NCBI RefSeq assembly: GCF_007997225.1
Contig: NZ_VORM01000012.1
Location: 1 to 64,000 of the forward strand
Direction: 5' to 3'
Source: Subsaximicrobium wynnwilliamsii
GTDB taxonomy: Bacteria; Bacteroidota; Bacteroidia; Flavobacteriales; Flavobacteriaceae
DNA length: 64,000 nt
Part shown: positions 39,780-47,128 of the stretch, piece by piece
How positions within the stretch are numbered: the first letter of the stretch is position 1
Layout: every line of letters begins with the position of its first letter
The notes under the pieces: generated by a model
Told to the model about the DNA's origin: nothing
The model's input: only the letters and a program-made list of their open reading frames with translations
The model's database searches: none
Translations under genes and position numbers: made by a program

Positions 39780-39842
39780 AAATTCCAAATTCCAAATTCC
39801 AAATTCCAATTTTTAATCAACAATCAACAATCAACAATTAAC
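39780..39842. repeat. heptanucleotide repeats at the hemB 3' end
   Basis: Four AAATTCC units (39780-39807), then three AATCAAC units (39815-39835) and a partial one that runs into the hemB stop at 39838. Two different 7-bp words in one short gap. Confidence 0.85.
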
Positions 39843-40830
39843 AGCCCAACAACTTAACCACATCTTTGGCAAAATAGCTCGCAATCACATCGGCACCGGC
39901 ACGTTTAATGGCAGTGATTTGTTCTAACATGACGGCATCATGATCGAGCCAGCCTTTTTCAGCAGCCGCCTTTACCATGGCGTATTCGCCAGAAACTTGA
40001 TAGACGGCGACCGGCACATTGAAAGTGTTTTTGATATCGCGAACAATATCGAGATAGCACAACCCTGGTTTTACCATGACGATATCTGCCCCTTCATTGA
40101 TGTCCATTTCGGTTTCCTTGATGGCTTCAGAGCGATTGGCAAAATCCATTTGGTAGGTTTTTTTATCCTTCGGAATGTCTTGTGCATCTACAGGCGCCGA
40201 ATCCAATGCATCACGGAAGGGACCATAAAATGCAGAAGCATATTTTGCCGAGTAGCTCATGATGCCAGTATCAGTATACCCACTGCCTTCCAAAATCTCG
40301 CGAATGGCCAAAATACGACCGTCCATCATATCGCTAGGTGCTAAAAAATCGGCACCTGCCTGCGCGTGCGACAAACTCATTTTGGCAAGCACTTCAACCG
40401 ACTCGTCGTTGCGAACACGTCCGTTTTGAACGATGCCGTCGTGACCATACGCACTGTAGGGATCAAAGGCAACGTCGGTCATGACCAACATATCGGGACA
40501 GGCATGCTTTACCGTTTTTATGGCACGTTGCATGAGTCCGTCGGGATTGTAGGTTTCCTTTCCGGTATTGTCTTTTAACTTATCTTCTACTTTCACAAAA
40601 AGCAGCACCGATTTTAAGCCCAAGGACCATAATTCCTTGACTTCTTTTTCCAGTAAATCCAAACTGTAGCGAAAATAATTTGGCATGGAAGCGATTTCGT
40701 CTTTTATATTTTTGCCTTCTACCACAAAGATGGGCACTAAAAAATCGTTGGGAGAGAGCACGGTTTCGCGCACTAGGCTTCTAATGGATTCGTTGGTTCT
40801 TAATCTTCGGTTTCTTATTAGTGGATACAT
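39838..40830 (-). CDS. hemB: porphobilinogen synthase (delta-aminolevulinate dehydratase)
   Basis: Condenses two 5-aminolevulinate into porphobilinogen, second common step of tetrapyrrole synthesis. The 330-residue chain has the two Schiff-base lysines in SYSAK (Lys196) and VMVKPG (Lys254). The metal loop reads DVAFDPYSAYGHDG with aspartates instead of the zinc cysteines, which points to a magnesium-dependent type. It is the last hem gene of the minus-strand series, 94 bp after hemF. Confidence 0.97.
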   Translation of the reverse strand: MYPLIRNRRLRTNESIRSLVRETVLSPNDFLVPIFVVEGKNIKDEIASMPNYFRYSLDLLEKEVKELWSLGLKSVLLFVKVEDKLKDNTGKETYNPDGLMQRAIKTVKHACPDMLVMTDVAFDPYSAYGHDGIVQNGRVRNDESVEVLAKMSLSHAQAGADFLAPSDMMDGRILAIREILEGSGYTDTGIMSYSAKYASAFYGPFRDALDSAPVDAQDIPKDKKTYQMDFANRSEAIKETEMDINEGADIVMVKPGLCYLDIVRDIKNTFNVPVAVYQVSGEYAMVKAAAEKGWLDHDAVMLEQITAIKRAGADVIASYFAKDVVKLLGC

Positions 40831-40924: not shown

Positions 40925-41827
40925 TCAAACCCAATCCACCGGATTTTGTAAGACTTCAAGTAGTTTTTCCTCTGCACTTCCAGGGGCTGGATGATGGTCA
41001 TATACCCATTGCACATGCGGCGGAAGGCTCATTAAGATACTTTCAATGCGCCCGTTGGTTTTGAGCCCGAATAGTGTGCCCTTATCATGTACCAAATTGA
41101 ACTCCACATAACGACCACGTCTTATCTCTTGCCAGTTGCGCTGGGTTTCGGTATATGGCAAATCCTTGCGTTTTTCAACAATCGGGGCGTATGCATCCAA
41201 GAAGCTATCGCCCACTTCGGTTACGAAATCATACCAATCTTGCATGCTCATGGCATCGGTTTTCTTGCAATAGTCGAAGAAGAGTCCGCCAATGCCCCGA
41301 CTTTCATTGCGGTGGGTGTTATAAAAATACGTATCACAACGGTTTTTATAATGTGGATAAAAACTCTCATCATGTTTGTCGCAAGCGGTTTTGCAAACTT
41401 GGTGGAAGTGCCGGGCATCTTCGTCAAATAAATAGAATGGGGTAAGGTCTTGGCCGCCACCAAACCATTGGTCCACGATATTCCCATCTTGATCGTACAT
41501 CTCAAAATAGCGCCAATTGGCATGTACTGTGGGCACCATCGGGTTTTTGGGATGTAGCACGAGACTCAATCCGCAGGCAAAAAAATTGGCATCTTTAACG
41601 CCAAAATAGCTTTGCATGCTTTCGGGCAAGGCACCATGCACGCCAGAGATATTCACGCCGCCTTTTTCAAAAACTTTGCCGTTTTCAATGACTCGGGTTC
41701 TTCCGCCACCGCCTTCGGTGCGGTCCCAAAGGTCTTCTCTAAATTTGGCTGTGCCATCAATGGCCTCGAGTTTGTCGCAGATGCGGTCTTGCAAGTTTTG
41801 TATGTAAGTGTAGAATTTTGTTTTCAT
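40925..41827 (-). CDS. hemF: oxygen-dependent coproporphyrinogen-III oxidase
   Basis: Oxidative decarboxylation of coproporphyrinogen III to protoporphyrinogen IX using O2. Taken from ATG 41825-41827 (MKTKFYTYIQ) it is 300 residues, exactly the family size, with the blocks GGGGRTRV, GVNISGVHG, HANWRYFE, WFGGGQDLTP and YVEFNLVHDKGT in order. The frame remains open upstream for another 215 codons through a REP linker into a RAYT transposase domain (see the next entry). The A-rich sequence before ATG 41827 is a normal start for this phylum, so HemF may still be made by itself. Confidence 0.96.
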   Translation of the reverse strand: MKTKFYTYIQNLQDRICDKLEAIDGTAKFREDLWDRTEGGGGRTRVIENGKVFEKGGVNISGVHGALPESMQSYFGVKDANFFACGLSLVLHPKNPMVPTVHANWRYFEMYDQDGNIVDQWFGGGQDLTPFYLFDEDARHFHQVCKTACDKHDESFYPHYKNRCDTYFYNTHRNESRGIGGLFFDYCKKTDAMSMQDWYDFVTEVGDSFLDAYAPIVEKRKDLPYTETQRNWQEIRRGRYVEFNLVHDKGTLFGLKTNGRIESILMSLPPHVQWVYDHHPAPGSAEEKLLEVLQNPVDWV

Positions 41828-42472
41828 TGTTGACTTTTCGTTCAAACCTACAAGGTCTTCGAGACCTTGCAGGTTGTGATCATCTTGCGGGTGGTCCTGA
41901 TGCAGGTTGCTTGATTGACCTGCAAGGTTTTCAAAACCTTGTAGGTCTGCACTTGTAATATTTGATGCTTGCTGCAAAGTTCTCAAATTTTCGACAGAAT
42001 CAAAAACCCTTTCAATTTCTGAGTGGTCTAATGTGAAAGGAGCAGGGTTATTGCCGTTAACATAATAGAAATAGGATGAAAATGGATATTCTTTTATAGC
42101 ATGTGTTGGATTTGAATGCACATAAAGTATTGCGTTTTTGAGATAGTCCTCAGAAATTAAACGCTTCCGTTTAAAATGTTTTTCAAACAAACTCCCGGTT
42201 CGGTGCTGTTGCTTGTTAAACGCTTTTGCATAAGCATTGAAAAGATTTGAAAACGCCTCAGTGATTTTGTTTTCATCGCTTACTTTAACAACCAAATGAA
42301 AATGAGTATTCATTAAACAAAACGCAATAATTTGTACTTTATGAGAAATGTGCTTCCCAACTAGATTTAGAAAATAAGATTTGTTGTCATCATTTTTGAA
42401 AATAGTCTCACTATGGATGCCACGGTTATAGATGTGATAGTAAAAATCTTTTTCTAATTTTTCTAATTTCAT
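40925..42472 (-). CDS. RAYT (REP-associated tyrosine transposase) domain open in frame into HemF
   Basis: Read from ATG 42470-42472, one uninterrupted frame of 515 codons encodes a Y1-transposase/RAYT domain (about 1-135), a linker (about 136-215) and complete HemF (216-515). RAYT marks: YHIYNRG (11-17 region), the HxH metal pair in NTHFHLVV (His57, His59), HRTGSLFEKHFKRKRL, and a candidate catalytic Tyr in YVHSNP (Tyr117), comparable with His61, His63 and Tyr115 reported for the E. coli RAYT. The linker holds two REP palindromes translated as LQGFENLAG (177-185) and LQGLEDLVG (201-209). The RAYT has no stop of its own. A TTG nine bases further upstream is the only other start. Whether a fused protein is made is unknown. 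Confidence 0.8.
   Translation of the reverse strand: MKLEKLEKDFYYHIYNRGIHSETIFKNDDNKSYFLNLVGKHISHKVQIIAFCLMNTHFHLVVKVSDENKITEAFSNLFNAYAKAFNKQQHRTGSLFEKHFKRKRLISEDYLKNAILYVHSNPTHAIKEYPFSSYFYYVNGNNPAPFTLDHSEIERVFDSVENLRTLQQASNITSADLQGFENLAGQSSNLHQDHPQDDHNLQGLEDLVGLNEKSTMKTKFYTYIQNLQDRICDKLEAIDGTAKFREDLWDRTEGGGGRTRVIENGKVFEKGGVNISGVHGALPESMQSYFGVKDANFFACGLSLVLHPKNPMVPTVHANWRYFEMYDQDGNIVDQWFGGGQDLTPFYLFDEDARHFHQVCKTACDKHDESFYPHYKNRCDTYFYNTHRNESRGIGGLFFDYCKKTDAMSMQDWYDFVTEVGDSFLDAYAPIVEKRKDLPYTETQRNWQEIRRGRYVEFNLVHDKGTLFGLKTNGRIESILMSLPPHVQWVYDHHPAPGSAEEKLLEVLQNPVDWV
41845..41875. repeat. REP palindrome inside the RAYT-HemF linker, HemF side
   Basis: AACCTACAAGGTCT and AGACCTTGCAGGTT arms around TCG. 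On the minus strand it codes LQGLEDLVG in the open frame. Confidence 0.85.
41917..41947. repeat. REP palindrome inside the RAYT-HemF linker, RAYT side
   Basis: GACCTGCAAGGTTTT and AAAACCTTGTAGGTC arms, in the opposite orientation to the copy at 41845; the pair makes a head-to-head BIME-like unit. Codes LQGFENLAG. Confidence 0.85.
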
Positions 42473-42515: not shown

Positions 42516-42546
42516 ACCTACAAGGTCTTTGAGACCTCGCAGGTTG
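42516..42546. repeat. REP palindrome upstream of the RAYT, copy 1
   Basis: AACCTACAAGGTCT and AGACCTCGCAGGTT (one mismatch) around TTG, 44 bases before the RAYT start. Confidence 0.85.
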
Positions 42547-42559
42547 GCCCTGATTTCAA

Positions 42560-42590
42560 ACCTACAAGGTCTTTGAGACCTTGCAGGTTG
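42560..42590. repeat. REP palindrome upstream of the RAYT, copy 2
   Basis: AACCTACAAGGTCT and AGACCTTGCAGGTT around TTG, 14 bp after copy 1 in the same orientation; a partial third arm (TTTGCAGGTT) follows at about 42598-42607. Confidence 0.85.
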
Positions 42591-42640: not shown

Positions 42641-43186
42641 TCAATATCTCTTATTTTTCAACTCATACAACTCCATGTCCAAAGCTGTGCCGCCATTAGG
42701 TGTAAATTCATTTTTCAGGGTTTTAATCCATTCAAATCCACAATTTTTGGCGACGCTCACACTTGGCAAATTGGTTTTGTGAGTGATGATTTGCAAGGTC
42801 TCCAGTTTTAGGGTATCAAAAGCATAAAGGGTTAATGCGTTTACGGTTTTTGAGGTCAAGCCTTTACCTTCAAAGGAATACCCAATGCAATAGGCAAACT
42901 CACCCTGTTTTTTCTTCCAATCCAGCTCCTTGATATAAAATAGTCCTGCGAGTTCTCGGGTTTCAGAATGTTTGAGTGTAAACACAAATTCTTGATTGCT
43001 TATGAATTGCTCCACCTTCTGGGCAACAAAAAGCTTGGAAAGGCTAGGGTTTAGATTCTGTTCTAAGGTCTTCGGAAAAAAACGCTTCAATCGATCGGCA
43101 TTGGCGACCATGAAATCGCATATTTTCCAAGCATCACCATCATGAATGGCAGCGATTTCAAAACTGTCGAATGTTGCAATCTTCAT
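42641..43186 (-). CDS. GNAT family N-acetyltransferase
   Basis: A 181-residue acetyltransferase with the RimJ/RimL-type layout: N-terminal beta-strand block, central QGEFAYCIGYSFEGKGLTSKTVNAL acetyl-CoA loop (given here in outline, about residues 94-118) and the C-terminal SVSVAKNCGFEWI helix-strand (about 147-159). It may modify a protein N-terminus or small molecule; the substrate is unknown. It lies eight bases after the EI24-domain gene and before the REP/RAYT insertion, within the hem series. Confidence 0.88.
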   Translation of the reverse strand: MKIATFDSFEIAAIHDGDAWKICDFMVANADRLKRFFPKTLEQNLNPSLSKLFVAQKVEQFISNQEFVFTLKHSETRELAGLFYIKELDWKKKQGEFAYCIGYSFEGKGLTSKTVNALTLYAFDTLKLETLQIITHKTNLPSVSVAKNCGFEWIKTLKNEFTPNGGTALDMELYELKNKRY

Positions 43187-43194
43187 GAGAAATT

Positions 43195-43989
43195 TTAATT
43201 TGAATGGCCTTCCTTCCGAAGCATTTTACCTGAAGCTGCCGCAGGGAGCAGGCCTTCTGTTTGCAGCAGGTTTACGGTTTTAATGGAGGCTGCCGTCACG
43301 CTCAAGGGCAAGACTAGAATAATACCAATTCCCGGAATGAACAGAAATAGCATAAATACCAATCCGTTGCCAATGGCGACACCGCGATGCTGTTTCACGA
43401 AATTAAGGCTTTCCTTATAATTAAAATGACGTTCCAAGGTATAATCCATATTCCCGAAACCTGCATAATAGGCTTGTACCAAAAAGAGTAAAATCGTGGA
43501 AAATATGTTGACCACAGGAATGAATTTGAGCAATAATAGTGGGATGGAGATCAGTAATTCTTTGACTAGGTTTCTTCCATTGATTCGCAGCCCTCGCCAT
43601 AACTGTTGTTGAAAAGAGGTTTTGCGATGCTCGTGTTTTTGAATGCCTGTGAGATGGGCTTCTATTTTTTCTGAAACCGGACTCATAAATGGCGCAGAAA
43701 AGGCCATGATGATGTGCTTGTAAACAATGAGCCCAATGACCAAGACCATGATGCCGCCAAGAACACTGGAGAAGGAGGTAAAGCTGTCTTTGCCCCAATC
43801 CCAAATCCATATTTTAGCGATGAAACGGCCAATATCATCTGAAAGTCCGTAAGCCGAAAAACCAATTAAGCTTGCCGTAAGGATGCTGATGAGGATGGGA
43901 ACGAAAAAGTATTTCCAGAGTTTGAGGCTTGCCATTAATTTGAACACGCCTGAATATGCCTGGATGCCTCTAAAAATGTTGTTGATCAT
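43195..43989 (-). CDS. EI24/CysZ-like membrane protein
   Basis: A 264-residue integral membrane protein with four or more hydrophobic segments (about 28-52, 78-100, 150-180 and 215-245 from ATG 43989). It resembles the EI24 domain family that includes the sulfate permease CysZ. The frame is open to 44013, but the conserved MINNIFRGIQAYS start favours 43989. Function in flavobacteria is unknown; its steady place between hemE and hemF here hints at a link with tetrapyrrole synthesis, but that is inference. Confidence 0.82.
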   Translation of the reverse strand: MINNIFRGIQAYSGVFKLMASLKLWKYFFVPILISILTASLIGFSAYGLSDDIGRFIAKIWIWDWGKDSFTSFSSVLGGIMVLVIGLIVYKHIIMAFSAPFMSPVSEKIEAHLTGIQKHEHRKTSFQQQLWRGLRINGRNLVKELLISIPLLLLKFIPVVNIFSTILLFLVQAYYAGFGNMDYTLERHFNYKESLNFVKQHRGVAIGNGLVFMLFLFIPGIGIILVLPLSVTAASIKTVNLLQTEGLLPAAASGKMLRKEGHSN

Positions 43990-44351
43990 AGGCCTATACT
44001 TAACTCTTTCCACAGGAAAGGGGGTTTATTCTGAGTCTTTCTTTATTTTAGATTGCTGTTATCAAATCAATATTGTCCGGCAGGCAGGCATAAGACTTGA
44101 TTCGTAAACATTTGATGATTAAGCCCATCTGATTTATATTTTTAATTTCAAAACTTAAAATGTCTTTTAGAGCCTAAGCAAGCTATTATATTTAAAATTT
44201 GCCTAAGAGCTTGCTGCTGTCAACAAAATCATTGTTTATAAAAGTTTAATCGGACAACAATGTTACCAAATATTAAAATTAAGGATTTTAATAGACAGTT
44301 CTACATGTTTTTGAATAGCGTACGCTTCACAGTTCCTCGCTTTTGGAAAGC
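43990..44351. other. ~360-bp gap between hemE and the EI24 gene
   Basis: No gene. It contains the second copy of the 60-bp dispersed repeat (44074-44133, inverted relative to 8613-8672). The rest is A+T-rich without a clear terminator. Confidence 0.55.
44074..44133. repeat. dispersed 60-bp repeat, copy 2
   Basis: Reverse complement of 8613-8672 with about two mismatches. Past the CCGGACA word the two copies rejoin after an extra ~47 bp in copy 1, so one copy has an insertion or the other a deletion. Confidence 0.75.
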
Positions 44352-45383
44352 TTAGGATGGGCTCTTATAACTTTTAACCGCATCAATAAAAGCGCCTGCA
44401 TTTTCAACAGGGATGTTAGGTAAAATGCCATGGCCCAAATTGACGATGTATTTATCCTTACCAAACTCGTTGATCATTTGGTGCACCATTGTTTTTATTT
44501 CTGAAGGCGATGAAAACAAGCGTGTTGGGTCAAAATTACCTTGCAAGGTTATGTTTCCTCCAGTTAAATAGCGCGCATTTCTAGGAGAACAAGTCCAATC
44601 TATACCTAAAGCGGAAGCACCAGAATTGGCCATCTCGCCAAGCGCGAACCAACAACCTTTACCAAAAGCGATGACTGGGGTTTCGTCTTTTAAGGCATTG
44701 ATGATTTGCTGAATGTATTGCCAAGAAAATTCCTGATAATCAACTGGGGATAACATGCCTCCCCAAGAATCGAATACCTGCACGGCATCACAGCCTGCCT
44801 TTACTTTTTCCTTGAGATAGGCAATGGTGGTATCGGTAATTTTTTGAAGCAATTGGTGCGCTGCAATGGGATTTGTAAAACAAAATTCCTTGGCTTTATC
44901 AAAATTTTTGCTGCCTTGGCCTTGCACGCAGTAGCACAAAATGGTCCATGGCGAGCCTGCAAAACCAATCAACGGAATCTCGTCATTGAGCTTTTCTTTA
45001 GTGGCTTTAATGGCTTGGTATACATAATTCAAAGCCTCTTTGACGTCTGGCACAATTACATGATCCACATCCTTTTGAGTACGGATGGGATTTGGCAAAT
45101 AGGGACCAAAATTGGGTTTCATTTGTACCTCAATGTTCATTGCCTGCGGAATCACAAGGATATCGCAAAACAAGATTGCTGCATCCATCCCAAAACGTTT
45201 TATGGGCTGTACCGTGATCTCACTGGCGAGCTCTGGCGTTTGGCAACGCGTGAAAAAATCATACTTGGCCTTGATTTCCATGAATTCTGGAAGGTATCGT
45301 CCGGCTTGGCGCATCATCCATACTGGTGGTCGCTCAACGGTTTCGCCTTTTAGGGCTCTTAGGAATAGGTCGTTTTTAATCAT
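44352..45383 (-). CDS. hemE: uroporphyrinogen decarboxylase
   Basis: Decarboxylates uroporphyrinogen III to coproporphyrinogen III. The 343 residues show the N-terminal signature [15 protein letters not shown] (about 19-33), [11 protein letters not shown] (about 72-82), GFAGSPWTI and the C-terminal [15 protein letters not shown]. It lies 161 bp after hemCD in the same direction, with a REP palindrome in between, and 360 bp before the EI24 gene. Confidence 0.97.
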
Positions 45384-45468: not shown

Positions 45469-45499
45469 AACCTGCAAGGTTTTCAAAACCTTGTAGGTT
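45469..45499. repeat. REP palindrome between hemCD and hemE
   Basis: AACCTGCAAGGTTTT and AAAACCTTGTAGGTT are perfect or near-perfect arms; same family as the RAYT-flanking copies. If transcribed it would form a strong hairpin between the two hem cistrons. Confidence 0.85.
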
Positions 45500-45544: not shown

Positions 45545-47128
45545 CTAATCGCCAAAATGTTCATTAACCAAATCAATCACACTCTCCACGCTGGGCATCT
45601 TTGCAATTCTAACATCCTCAAAATGTTTACTGGCTTCTAGTGCGGTGGTTTCTCCAATACAAAAGGCAACCATATCATCTGCGGCCACATTTTCTTTTTT
45701 GAAACTCTGTACGGTTGATGGGCTATAGAACATAACTCCTTTTACAGAATCCTCGATCTTTTGTGCATCATGTTTGGTTTCGTAGGCAATGACTTCCTTG
45801 ACGTCAATGTGATTTTCGGCGAGAAGATTTGGCAACTCATCCAAACGAATATCACTGCAGAAATAAGTGACTTCAGTACCATCAATATACTCGATGAGGT
45901 GCTCAGCCAGTTTCTTGGCGCTGTTTTCAGTGTGCTTGACTTTGCCAATCTTGCGTTCTACCAAGCGTTTGGTGCGTCTCCCCACGCAATAGATGTTTTC
46001 AAATTTCAATTCTTCCGCAGAAAAATTGTTCAAAAGGGATTCTACTGCATTTTTACTGGTAAGGACCACGTTTTTTGGAAAGGGTCTCAAAACCGTTTGG
46101 GTCATGCGGTTGAAATTGATTTTTACGAAATCGGAGCTGTCTGAAATGACATCATCATGAAAGTGCTGTTTCTGCTCGTCACTCAAGGTTTTGGTAGAGT
46201 AAACATTGACTTCCTTGGAAGCCTTCTTAAGTTCATCCATGAGTCGCTTACCACCGCGATCAATGATAAAATTGGCGCAATAGGCCGCTATGTTATGATG
46301 TCTACCCAAGATTTCCTTGCGTTCGACTTCAATTTTTTTGCTTCCGTCGAGGCTTAACAACACGCCTTTAAAATTCACCTCCTCATTTTTGATATAGGCC
46401 AAGGCGCCAATAGGTGCGGAACATCCACCTTCCAAAAGATTCAGAAATTTACGTTCAATCGAAGTGCAGATTTGAGTTTCTTCATGGTTGATTTCGGCAC
46501 AGATCTCCCGTGTTTCGGTATCAGCTTCCAAAGCGGCAACCATGATGGTGCCTTGGGCCGGTGCGGGTAACATCCAGTCCAGGTTAAAACTGTTCTCGGG
46601 CGTTTTATCGAGGCGTCCCAATCCTGCTGCTGCAAATATGGCAGCATTCCAGTCGCTATCTTCCAATTTTTGCAGGCGTAAATTCACATTGCCTCTTAAA
46701 CCCACAACGGTATGGGTTGGGTAACGGTTGAGCCATTGGGCACGTCTGCGCAAACTGCCTGTGGCAACCACGGCTTCACGTTGTGAGATAAACTCCTCAT
46801 TGTCATTGAAGACTAGGCAATCGTTATGATTGCCGCGTTTGATGACCGCTGCCTGCACGATTTGCTCGGGCAAGACTGTTGGGACATCTTTGAAGGAATG
46901 CACCGCAATATCAATGTCGCCGTTGATTAGGGCGAGATCTAAGGTTTTGGTAAAAACACCAGTGATTCCCAATTCGTTGATGGGGCGGTCTAACATGAGA
47001 TCGCCAACAGATTTGATGGGAACAATTTGGGTGCGGTGACCTAAGGTTTCGAGTTGCTGTTGTACTGTGGTGGCTTGGTATAGCGCGAGTTCGCTATCAC
47101 GGGTTCCAATTCTAATAAGTTTAGGCAT
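45545..47128 (-). CDS. hemCD: hydroxymethylbilane synthase / uroporphyrinogen-III synthase fusion
   Basis: A 527-residue two-enzyme protein. Residues 1 to about 305 are HemC: GTRDSELAL (8-16), GVFTKTLD, SLRRRAQ (125-131), RGNVNLRL and the cofactor cysteine in LEGGCSAPIG (Cys236). From about 310 to the end is a HemD-like domain (LTSKNAVESLLNNF, VTYFCSDIR, GVMFYSPSTVQSF). HemC polymerises porphobilinogen and HemD closes the ring, so the fusion may channel the unstable intermediate. Its start overlaps hemA by 8 bases, indicating coupled translation. Confidence 0.95.
   Translation of the reverse strand: MPKLIRIGTRDSELALYQATTVQQQLETLGHRTQIVPIKSVGDLMLDRPINELGITGVFTKTLDLALINGDIDIAVHSFKDVPTVLPEQIVQAAVIKRGNHNDCLVFNDNEEFISQREAVVATGSLRRRAQWLNRYPTHTVVGLRGNVNLRLQKLEDSDWNAAIFAAAGLGRLDKTPENSFNLDWMLPAPAQGTIMVAALEADTETREICAEINHEETQICTSIERKFLNLLEGGCSAPIGALAYIKNEEVNFKGVLLSLDGSKKIEVERKEILGRHHNIAAYCANFIIDRGGKRLMDELKKASKEVNVYSTKTLSDEQKQHFHDDVISDSSDFVKINFNRMTQTVLRPFPKNVVLTSKNAVESLLNNFSAEELKFENIYCVGRRTKRLVERKIGKVKHTENSAKKLAEHLIEYIDGTEVTYFCSDIRLDELPNLLAENHIDVKEVIAYETKHDAQKIEDSVKGVMFYSPSTVQSFKKENVAADDMVAFCIGETTALEASKHFEDVRIAKMPSVESVIDLVNEHFGD

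Follow-up and report, generated by a model that had tools for sequence, protein, structure and literature searches.

The window, which is the whole stretch of 64,000 nucleotides analyzed here, carries on its minus strand a heme biosynthesis cluster in the order hemCD, hemE, a frame at 43195–44013, a GNAT acetyltransferase gene, RAYT-hemF and hemB. The hemC and hemD genes share one frame of 527 aa (45545–47128), hemE lies at 44352–45383, the GNAT gene (42641–43186) is the upstream neighbor of RAYT-hemF, and hemB (39838–40830) follows downstream in the same cluster. Among relatives lacking the RAYT, the GNAT gene abuts or overlaps hemF (gap of −11 to 8 nt) in 11 of 27 loci. The RAYT-hemF gene (40925–42472) is a single stop-free frame of 515 codons, running on the minus strand from an ATG at 42472 to a TGA whose last base is 40925. 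It encodes a RAYT/Y1 transposase domain (aa 1–165; 41978–42472), a mostly REP-coded linker predicted to be disordered (aa 166–215; 41828–41977), and HemF, the oxygen-dependent coproporphyrinogen III oxidase (40925–41827), the own ATG of which is retained at 41827.

Both halves of the protein were recognized by profile searches. The HemF part matches Pfam Coprogen_oxidas over aa 220–514 (450 bits) and the NCBIfam HemF equivalog at full length (423 bits against a cut-off of 297; model positions 2–294 of 294). The match of the N-terminal part to Pfam Y1_Tnp is weak (aa 9–100, 24.1 bits against a cut-off of 23), and that to NCBIfam REP_Tyr_transpos, with 36.9 bits, falls below the cut-off of 80. 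Despite the latter, the Y1/RAYT assignment is borne out by the fold: a Foldseek search with the predicted model recovered, besides solved HemF structures, 4er8_A (E = 7.3e-5), the Escherichia coli RAYT bound to a REP hairpin. In the model (mean pLDDT 70.7, pTM 0.51), the RAYT core is predicted confidently and HemF fairly, and aa 173–213 of the linker have a pLDDT below 50, read as disorder. The HuH motif (H57 and H59; codons 42304–42296) and the single catalytic tyrosine expected of a RAYT (TnpA_REP), Y117 of the YxHxNP motif (codon 42124–42122), are both present, and the three residues are invariant in an alignment of 27 fused proteins. An earlier note on this DNA had proposed the uninterrupted RAYT–linker–HemF frame, the RAYT identity with HxH at 57–59 and Tyr117, and the internal HemF ATG, all of which hold.

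The fusion is surrounded and traversed by REP palindromes. Two of these lie upstream, on the left side of the unit (42517–42543 and 42561–42587), two within the linker (41919–41945 and 41847–41873), and a further copy is located between hemCD and hemE (45471–45497). The linker palindromes are translated as LQGFENLAG and LQGLEDLVG, respectively, as had been noticed from the letters, and the first is inverted relative to the upstream REPs, so that the RAYT is flanked by inverted REPs. A search allowing up to 3 mismatches yielded 10 matches in the window (the 5 palindromes on both strands), compared to 0.01 expected, and 38 matches per strand in the complete window genome, compared to none for the reversed control, indicating REP copies dispersed through the genome. 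A 5′ GT[AG]G foot was not found ahead of the hairpin; GTAG sits inside the stem, near one end. Across the 44 distinct RAYT-at-hemF loci described below, REPs of the strict pattern are present upstream in 30, in the linker in 31 and at both places in 23, the nearest upstream REP being in the L orientation in 22 of the 30 and the first linker REP in the R orientation in 18 of the 31, with L in 6 and a symmetric or different form in the remaining 7.

A scan of GTDB genomes for RAYT relatives, performed with patterns derived from the RAYT of the window itself and thus biased towards close relatives, retrieved 32 such genes, 29 of which have hemF directly downstream, with 25 of the 29 pairs forming one in-frame ORF. 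Within the genus of the window, the fusion is present in 2 of 23 genomes, the second one (G002, a single contig) encoding a protein with 75% identity. In a family-wide survey of 219 genomes from 201 genera, 40 displayed a RAYT match; among the 30 for which loci were retrieved, one locus per genome, 12 RAYTs are fused to HemF, 4 are adjacent to hemF but unfused, 1 is in the arrangement RAYT-hemE-hemF, and 13 have no hemF within approximately 1.5 kb. Removal of three duplicates left 44 distinct RAYT-at-hemF loci, 37 in-frame fusions and 7 unfused. Based on record titles, the fusions come from ten named genera (Arcticiflavibacter, Winogradskyella, Hyunsoonleella, Mariniflexile, Aestuariivivens, Flaviramulus, Algibacter, Seonamhaeicola, Polaribacter, and Aequorivita) and from other Flavobacteriaceae. 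This RAYT subfamily is found nearly only at hemF, in 29 of the 32 GTDB relatives and 16 of the 18 best survey loci. The same cluster in another genus (G029; loci L034 and L110) contains a RAYT that ends in a stop of its own and is followed by hemE and then hemF.

The recurrence of the fusion bears on its origin. The earlier note had suggested searching Flavobacteriaceae hemF loci for the RAYT extension, a search that now gives 37 distinct fused loci, and had pictured a RAYT that inserted upstream of hemF and lost its stop; the fusion itself stands, whereas a local accident or a recent one-off insertion does not agree with so many loci. The arrangement that the note regarded as fatal to its proposal, a RAYT with its own stop followed by hemF with its own start, exists in 7 of the 44 loci, all with ATG, and thus the fusion is common but not universal. 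A sequencing or assembly error, or chance, can be practically dismissed, since the fusion occurs in independent genomes sequenced in many projects, including the single-contig assemblies G002, G154, G179, G187, and G258.

The HemF start position differs between fused and unfused loci. It is occupied by ATG, GTG or TTG in 19 of the 37 fusions and by another codon in the remaining 18 (ATC in 9, ATA in 4, and TTA, TTT, GTC, CTC and ACC in one each). ATC is the codon in Winogradskyella eximia, W. vidalii and W. litoriviva. By contrast, ATG is kept in 7 of 7 unfused RAYT loci, and 24 of 27 RAYT-less hemF loci have a start at the exact position, with 2 of the other 3 having one within 7 codons. The difference in start loss (18/37 compared to 0/7 and 3/27) corresponds to a Fisher p of 2.5e-4, or 1.3e-4 under the 7-codon rule, uncorrected for relatedness, the start-loss loci being partly related to one another. 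A start-like codon is found upstream within 7 codons in 3 of the 18 start-loss loci and at 20–42 codons in 9, while no ATG, GTG or TTG is present within 45 codons upstream of the HemF start position in the other six (L074, L076, L078, L079, L096, and L106), four of which belong to related Winogradskyella; L078 has a GTG 22 codons downstream of the position. Each of the 11 genomes searched, among them those of all six loci, has a single copy of HemF, so that HemF in the six is probably made only as a fusion, as judged from the sequence. HemF is presumably important in aerobic growth. It is not the only coproporphyrinogen oxidase, a possibility that we rejected because HemN scored above the cut-off in all 11 genomes. 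One RAYT-less hemF locus (L026, in G003) lacks a start both at the usual position and within 7 codons of it, and carries a different N-terminal extension upstream.

The fused RAYT is under purifying selection. The catalytic tyrosine is kept in 37 of 37 fusions and the HuH motif in 36, the exception being L101, in which Gln replaces the first His. The median pN/pS over 351 pairs, in which the synonymous sites of RAYT and HemF are close to saturated, amounts to 0.37 in the RAYT, 0.80 in the linker and 0.14 in HemF. Among 26 pairs with a HemF pS below 0.55, the RAYT dN/dS is 0.06–0.24 in 23, ratios that are rough because RAYT dS exceeds 1 in most of these pairs; in the other 3 pairs, the RAYTs are nearly identical (dS ≤0.02) and give no dN/dS estimate. 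The stretch from the Tyr motif to HemF was measured in 41 loci: it comes in 20 different lengths among the 35 fused ones, which are in frame by definition but are also all open, and base-shuffled versions are stop-free with a chance of ≤0.007; 5 of the 6 unfused loci measured are out of frame and 1 contains a stop.

The abundance of REPs follows the fusion to a large extent. Ranked by REP counts, the two fusion genomes come first and second among the 23 genomes of the genus, with 33 and 17 copies, followed by G009 with 9; 11 of the 23 genomes have none. In the family survey, REPs matching the general pattern are present in 14 of 16 genomes with a RAYT fused or adjacent to hemF, compared to 12 of 203 others, with the caveats that the pattern was drawn from these very REPs, that the counts include the copies at hemF, and that 10 of the 203 have weak RAYT matches, the loci of which were left out. 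In G002, the fusion is the single Y1_Tnp match genome-wide and coexists with about 17 REPs. The association is not strict in either direction: the single-contig genome G223 has 29 REPs and no Y1_Tnp match, so REPs outlive or manage without a RAYT, and G110 encodes a fused RAYT-HemF but has 0 REPs of this pattern.

Comparison of closely related loci revealed the borders of a unit. Across the 44 loci, DNA identity of the RAYT is 10 points lower than that of hemF at the median pair. The three largest departures from this trend are in the opposite direction, with the RAYT being 11–13 points more alike than hemF. The hemF gene of Algibacter is 84% identical to those of Hyunsoonleella jejuensis and Seonamhaeicola aphaedonensis but the RAYT is 97% identical; the latter two have nearly the same sequence here and are counted as one case. 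For Winogradskyella endarachnes and W. sediminis, the corresponding values are 87% and 99%. In both cases, the near-identical block begins at the end of the upstream gene or immediately before the left REP and reaches approximately HemF codon 1; outside of it, identity drops to the level of the flanks. The reverse is seen between L087 and L108 (G187), which share 95% identity through the left REP and 96% from the HemF ATG onwards, with a RAYT of only 69% identity in between; divergence begins right after the left REP and stops at the HemF ATG. In the group of L074, L076, and L078, low divergence extends leftward beyond the unit, so that only the right border is visible.

Further signs of exchange and loss come from trees and neighboring genes. 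In the RAYT tree, G002 groups with Arcticiflavibacter (support 100/93), whereas in the HemF tree, the bootstrap of which had not settled, G002 groups with Winogradskyella (92/89, below the threshold at which the tool assigns a star) and Arcticiflavibacter with L087 and L108 (98/87). The two trees are thus in conflict, and simple vertical descent of the RAYT with HemF fits neither this conflict nor the mosaic blocks, although it may hold for part of the history. Upstream of the constant hemF, some loci have GNAT, others GNAT together with a small frame, and in the remainder no GNAT was found. Traces of loss are present as well: in G009 (L014), a decayed RAYT start lies between two REPs (local score of 49, compared to a maximum of 37 in 300 shuffles), and in G020 (L015) a single REP and linker-like sequence remain before hemF. 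Regarding mobility of the kind known from IS200/IS605 elements, which are multicopy and transpose as a unit, no second copy of this RAYT was found in G002 or in the window genome, where the remaining Y1 hits are to different proteins. The unit does show two features of a homing element: it has one fixed location, within a housekeeping gene, and is exchanged there.

We put a probability of roughly two-thirds on the reading that a REP–RAYT unit has lodged at the start of hemF, where it rides on the translation of HemF, still acts on REPs and moves as a cassette. A REPtron (REP, RAYT gene, inverted REP) would occupy the 5′ end of hemF in many Flavobacteriaceae, with the RAYT frame continuing through the right-hand REP, which would serve as a flexible linker, into HemF, so that a Y1 HuH endonuclease with intact catalytic residues would form the N-terminal domain of a heme enzyme. 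The native HemF start would be superfluous after the fusion and hence prone to repeated decay, with HemF seemingly made only as a fusion in at least six loci. The RAYT domain would still act on REP hairpins and maintain the genomic REP population, and hemF loci would acquire, exchange and lose the unit as a cassette that ends close to the left REP on one side and close to HemF codon 1 on the other. The fusion would provide the RAYT with steady expression alongside the heme genes; once the HemF start had decayed, deletion of the RAYT would be costly, and its endonuclease, by acting on REPs, may in addition be what causes hemF alleles to exchange the unit. At the level of sequence, the fusion and its conservation, the start loss, the cassette borders, the catalytic residues and the REP association are established; what we infer is production of the fusion protein, its nicking of REPs and a homing-like exchange powered by this cutting. 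The boldest form of the proposal, that of a bacterial homing element of a new type, in which a Y1 HuH transposase constitutes the front half of HemF, invades or replaces hemF-start alleles via its REP ends without protein splicing, and makes its loss costly by erasing the start codon, is put forward tentatively and is on balance doubtful.

The most serious alternative, a real possibility albeit at less than even odds, accepts the fusion as genuine and conserved but not as self-mobile: it would have had one or a few origins, descended mostly vertically and often been lost by REP–REP deletion, with the mosaics produced by ordinary homologous recombination at the hem locus. The near-exclusive location at hemF is expected of a single ancestral insertion, the decayed RAYT start in G009 and the single-REP scar in G020 are traces of such losses, and REPtrons are described as not appearing to transpose as a unit (PMC6006769); moreover, homologous recombination could swap the block too, as the REP and the hemF 5′ end are short shared sequences. 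This account is harder to reconcile with shifts in divergence close to the unit ends in three independent comparisons and in both directions, and with the disagreement between RAYT and HemF trees and the exchange of upstream neighbors around an unchanged hemF. It is unlikely that HemF is mainly produced from internal starts, with the long frame being a tolerated read-through that has no function as a fusion. Such starts do exist, in the 19 fusions that keep one at the HemF position, in the nine with one 20–42 codons upstream, and in the window, where HemF could be made alone from its ATG; yet the six loci devoid of starts within 45 codons upstream and the open frames of so many different lengths speak against it. 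Less probable still is a RAYT domain turned regulator, which would bind REPs in its own gene or mRNA to tune hemF. REPs in the linker and upstream of most loci would suit this role, but pure binding would require neither the HuH motif nor the tyrosine, both of which are retained, and the genome-wide REP numbers track the fusion.

Palindromes translated as protein within genes, as here, are known from the Rickettsia palindromic elements; to our knowledge, in these no transposase is joined to a host protein, unlike in the present case. The earlier note held that translated palindromes are known chiefly from Rickettsia, a view that has to be corrected, as in-frame REPs inside tnpA_REP genes are reported for subclass 2.4, where the palindromes are likewise translated and the frame is unbroken (PMC6006769). 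The REPs of that subclass are described as lying mostly between the HuH and Tyr motifs inside the transposase, whereas in the present fusion the REP connects the transposase to another protein. In terms of the transposase, the closest likeness is to the Bacteroidetes TnpA_REP subclass 2.6 (RAYT group 5), with which the fused RAYT shares a Y1 HuH domain of ~180 aa, NHxH and YIHxNP-type motifs, and flanking palindromes that are atypical and recur at other genomic sites, and which is described without the consensus GT[AG]G foot (PMC6006769). It differs in usually lacking a stop, continuing into a metabolic enzyme and having a fixed address at the hemF start. The placement is a guess from motif and lineage, and the WQ motif reported for subclass 2.6 (PMC6006769) is not seen here. 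That account (PMC6006769) already covers RAYTs and REPtrons as well as the translation of REPs within RAYT genes, while the RAYT-HemF fusion did not appear in the titles or abstract beginnings returned by open-access literature searches. The TnpA_REP survey states that unexpectedly long proteins were discarded as fusions or annotation errors (PMC6006769), which may explain why the fusion was missed. The nearest parallel in behavior is provided by the yeast WHO elements at the aldolase gene FBA1, in which a nuclease gene is likewise joined to one end of a housekeeping gene and spreads in an intein-like manner without protein splicing (PMC7282813). These elements differ in being yeast elements located at the 3′ end of the gene, in having an intein-derived nuclease and in that cutting has been demonstrated (PMC7282813), the present case being known from sequence.

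Several other proteins with RAYT parts or translated repeats were encountered. A 992-aa Eco57I/MmeI-like type IIG restriction-modification protein (L133:3245–6223, minus strand; equivalent to G000:C88, and also present at L002:586–3180) contains an in-frame RAYT/Y1 domain just before its IGNPPY motif and eight REHAPLA repeats, the DNA of which is the perfect palindrome AGGGAGCATGCTCCCT in five and a near-palindrome in three. At L134:2118–5000 (plus strand; G236:C16), a RAYT-like N-terminus, 45% identical to the RAYT of the window over aa 5–68 and with no Pfam Y1_Tnp match, is fused in frame to a PIF1-like helicase that has an HRDC domain, with a translated THTVTQSHGVS repeat within the RAYT part and at the joint. 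Taken with hemF, this case suggests that RAYTs become fused via translated palindromes more generally. A second RAYT of the window genome (L003:1462–2160, minus strand) carries translated NPVGTGRDLS repeats in its coding sequence, and HemF of Hyunsoonleella jejuensis (L090:3001–4545; L073) has a short in-frame insert mid-enzyme (around PSTPLRAGEPRE), which looks like another translated repeat.

The long persistence of RAYTs and REP populations in bacterial genomes is described as an open question (PMC8049555). A RAYT joined to a heme enzyme, the start codon of which has been erased in some lineages, would offer a testable answer, in that coupling to translation of the enzyme and protection against deletion may together account for persistence. 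The mosaics seen in three independent comparisons suggest that prokaryotes have an equivalent of intein-like homing that involves no splicing. In the Flavobacteriaceae, the fusion is also a lasting union of a metabolic enzyme and a transposase with intact catalytic residues.
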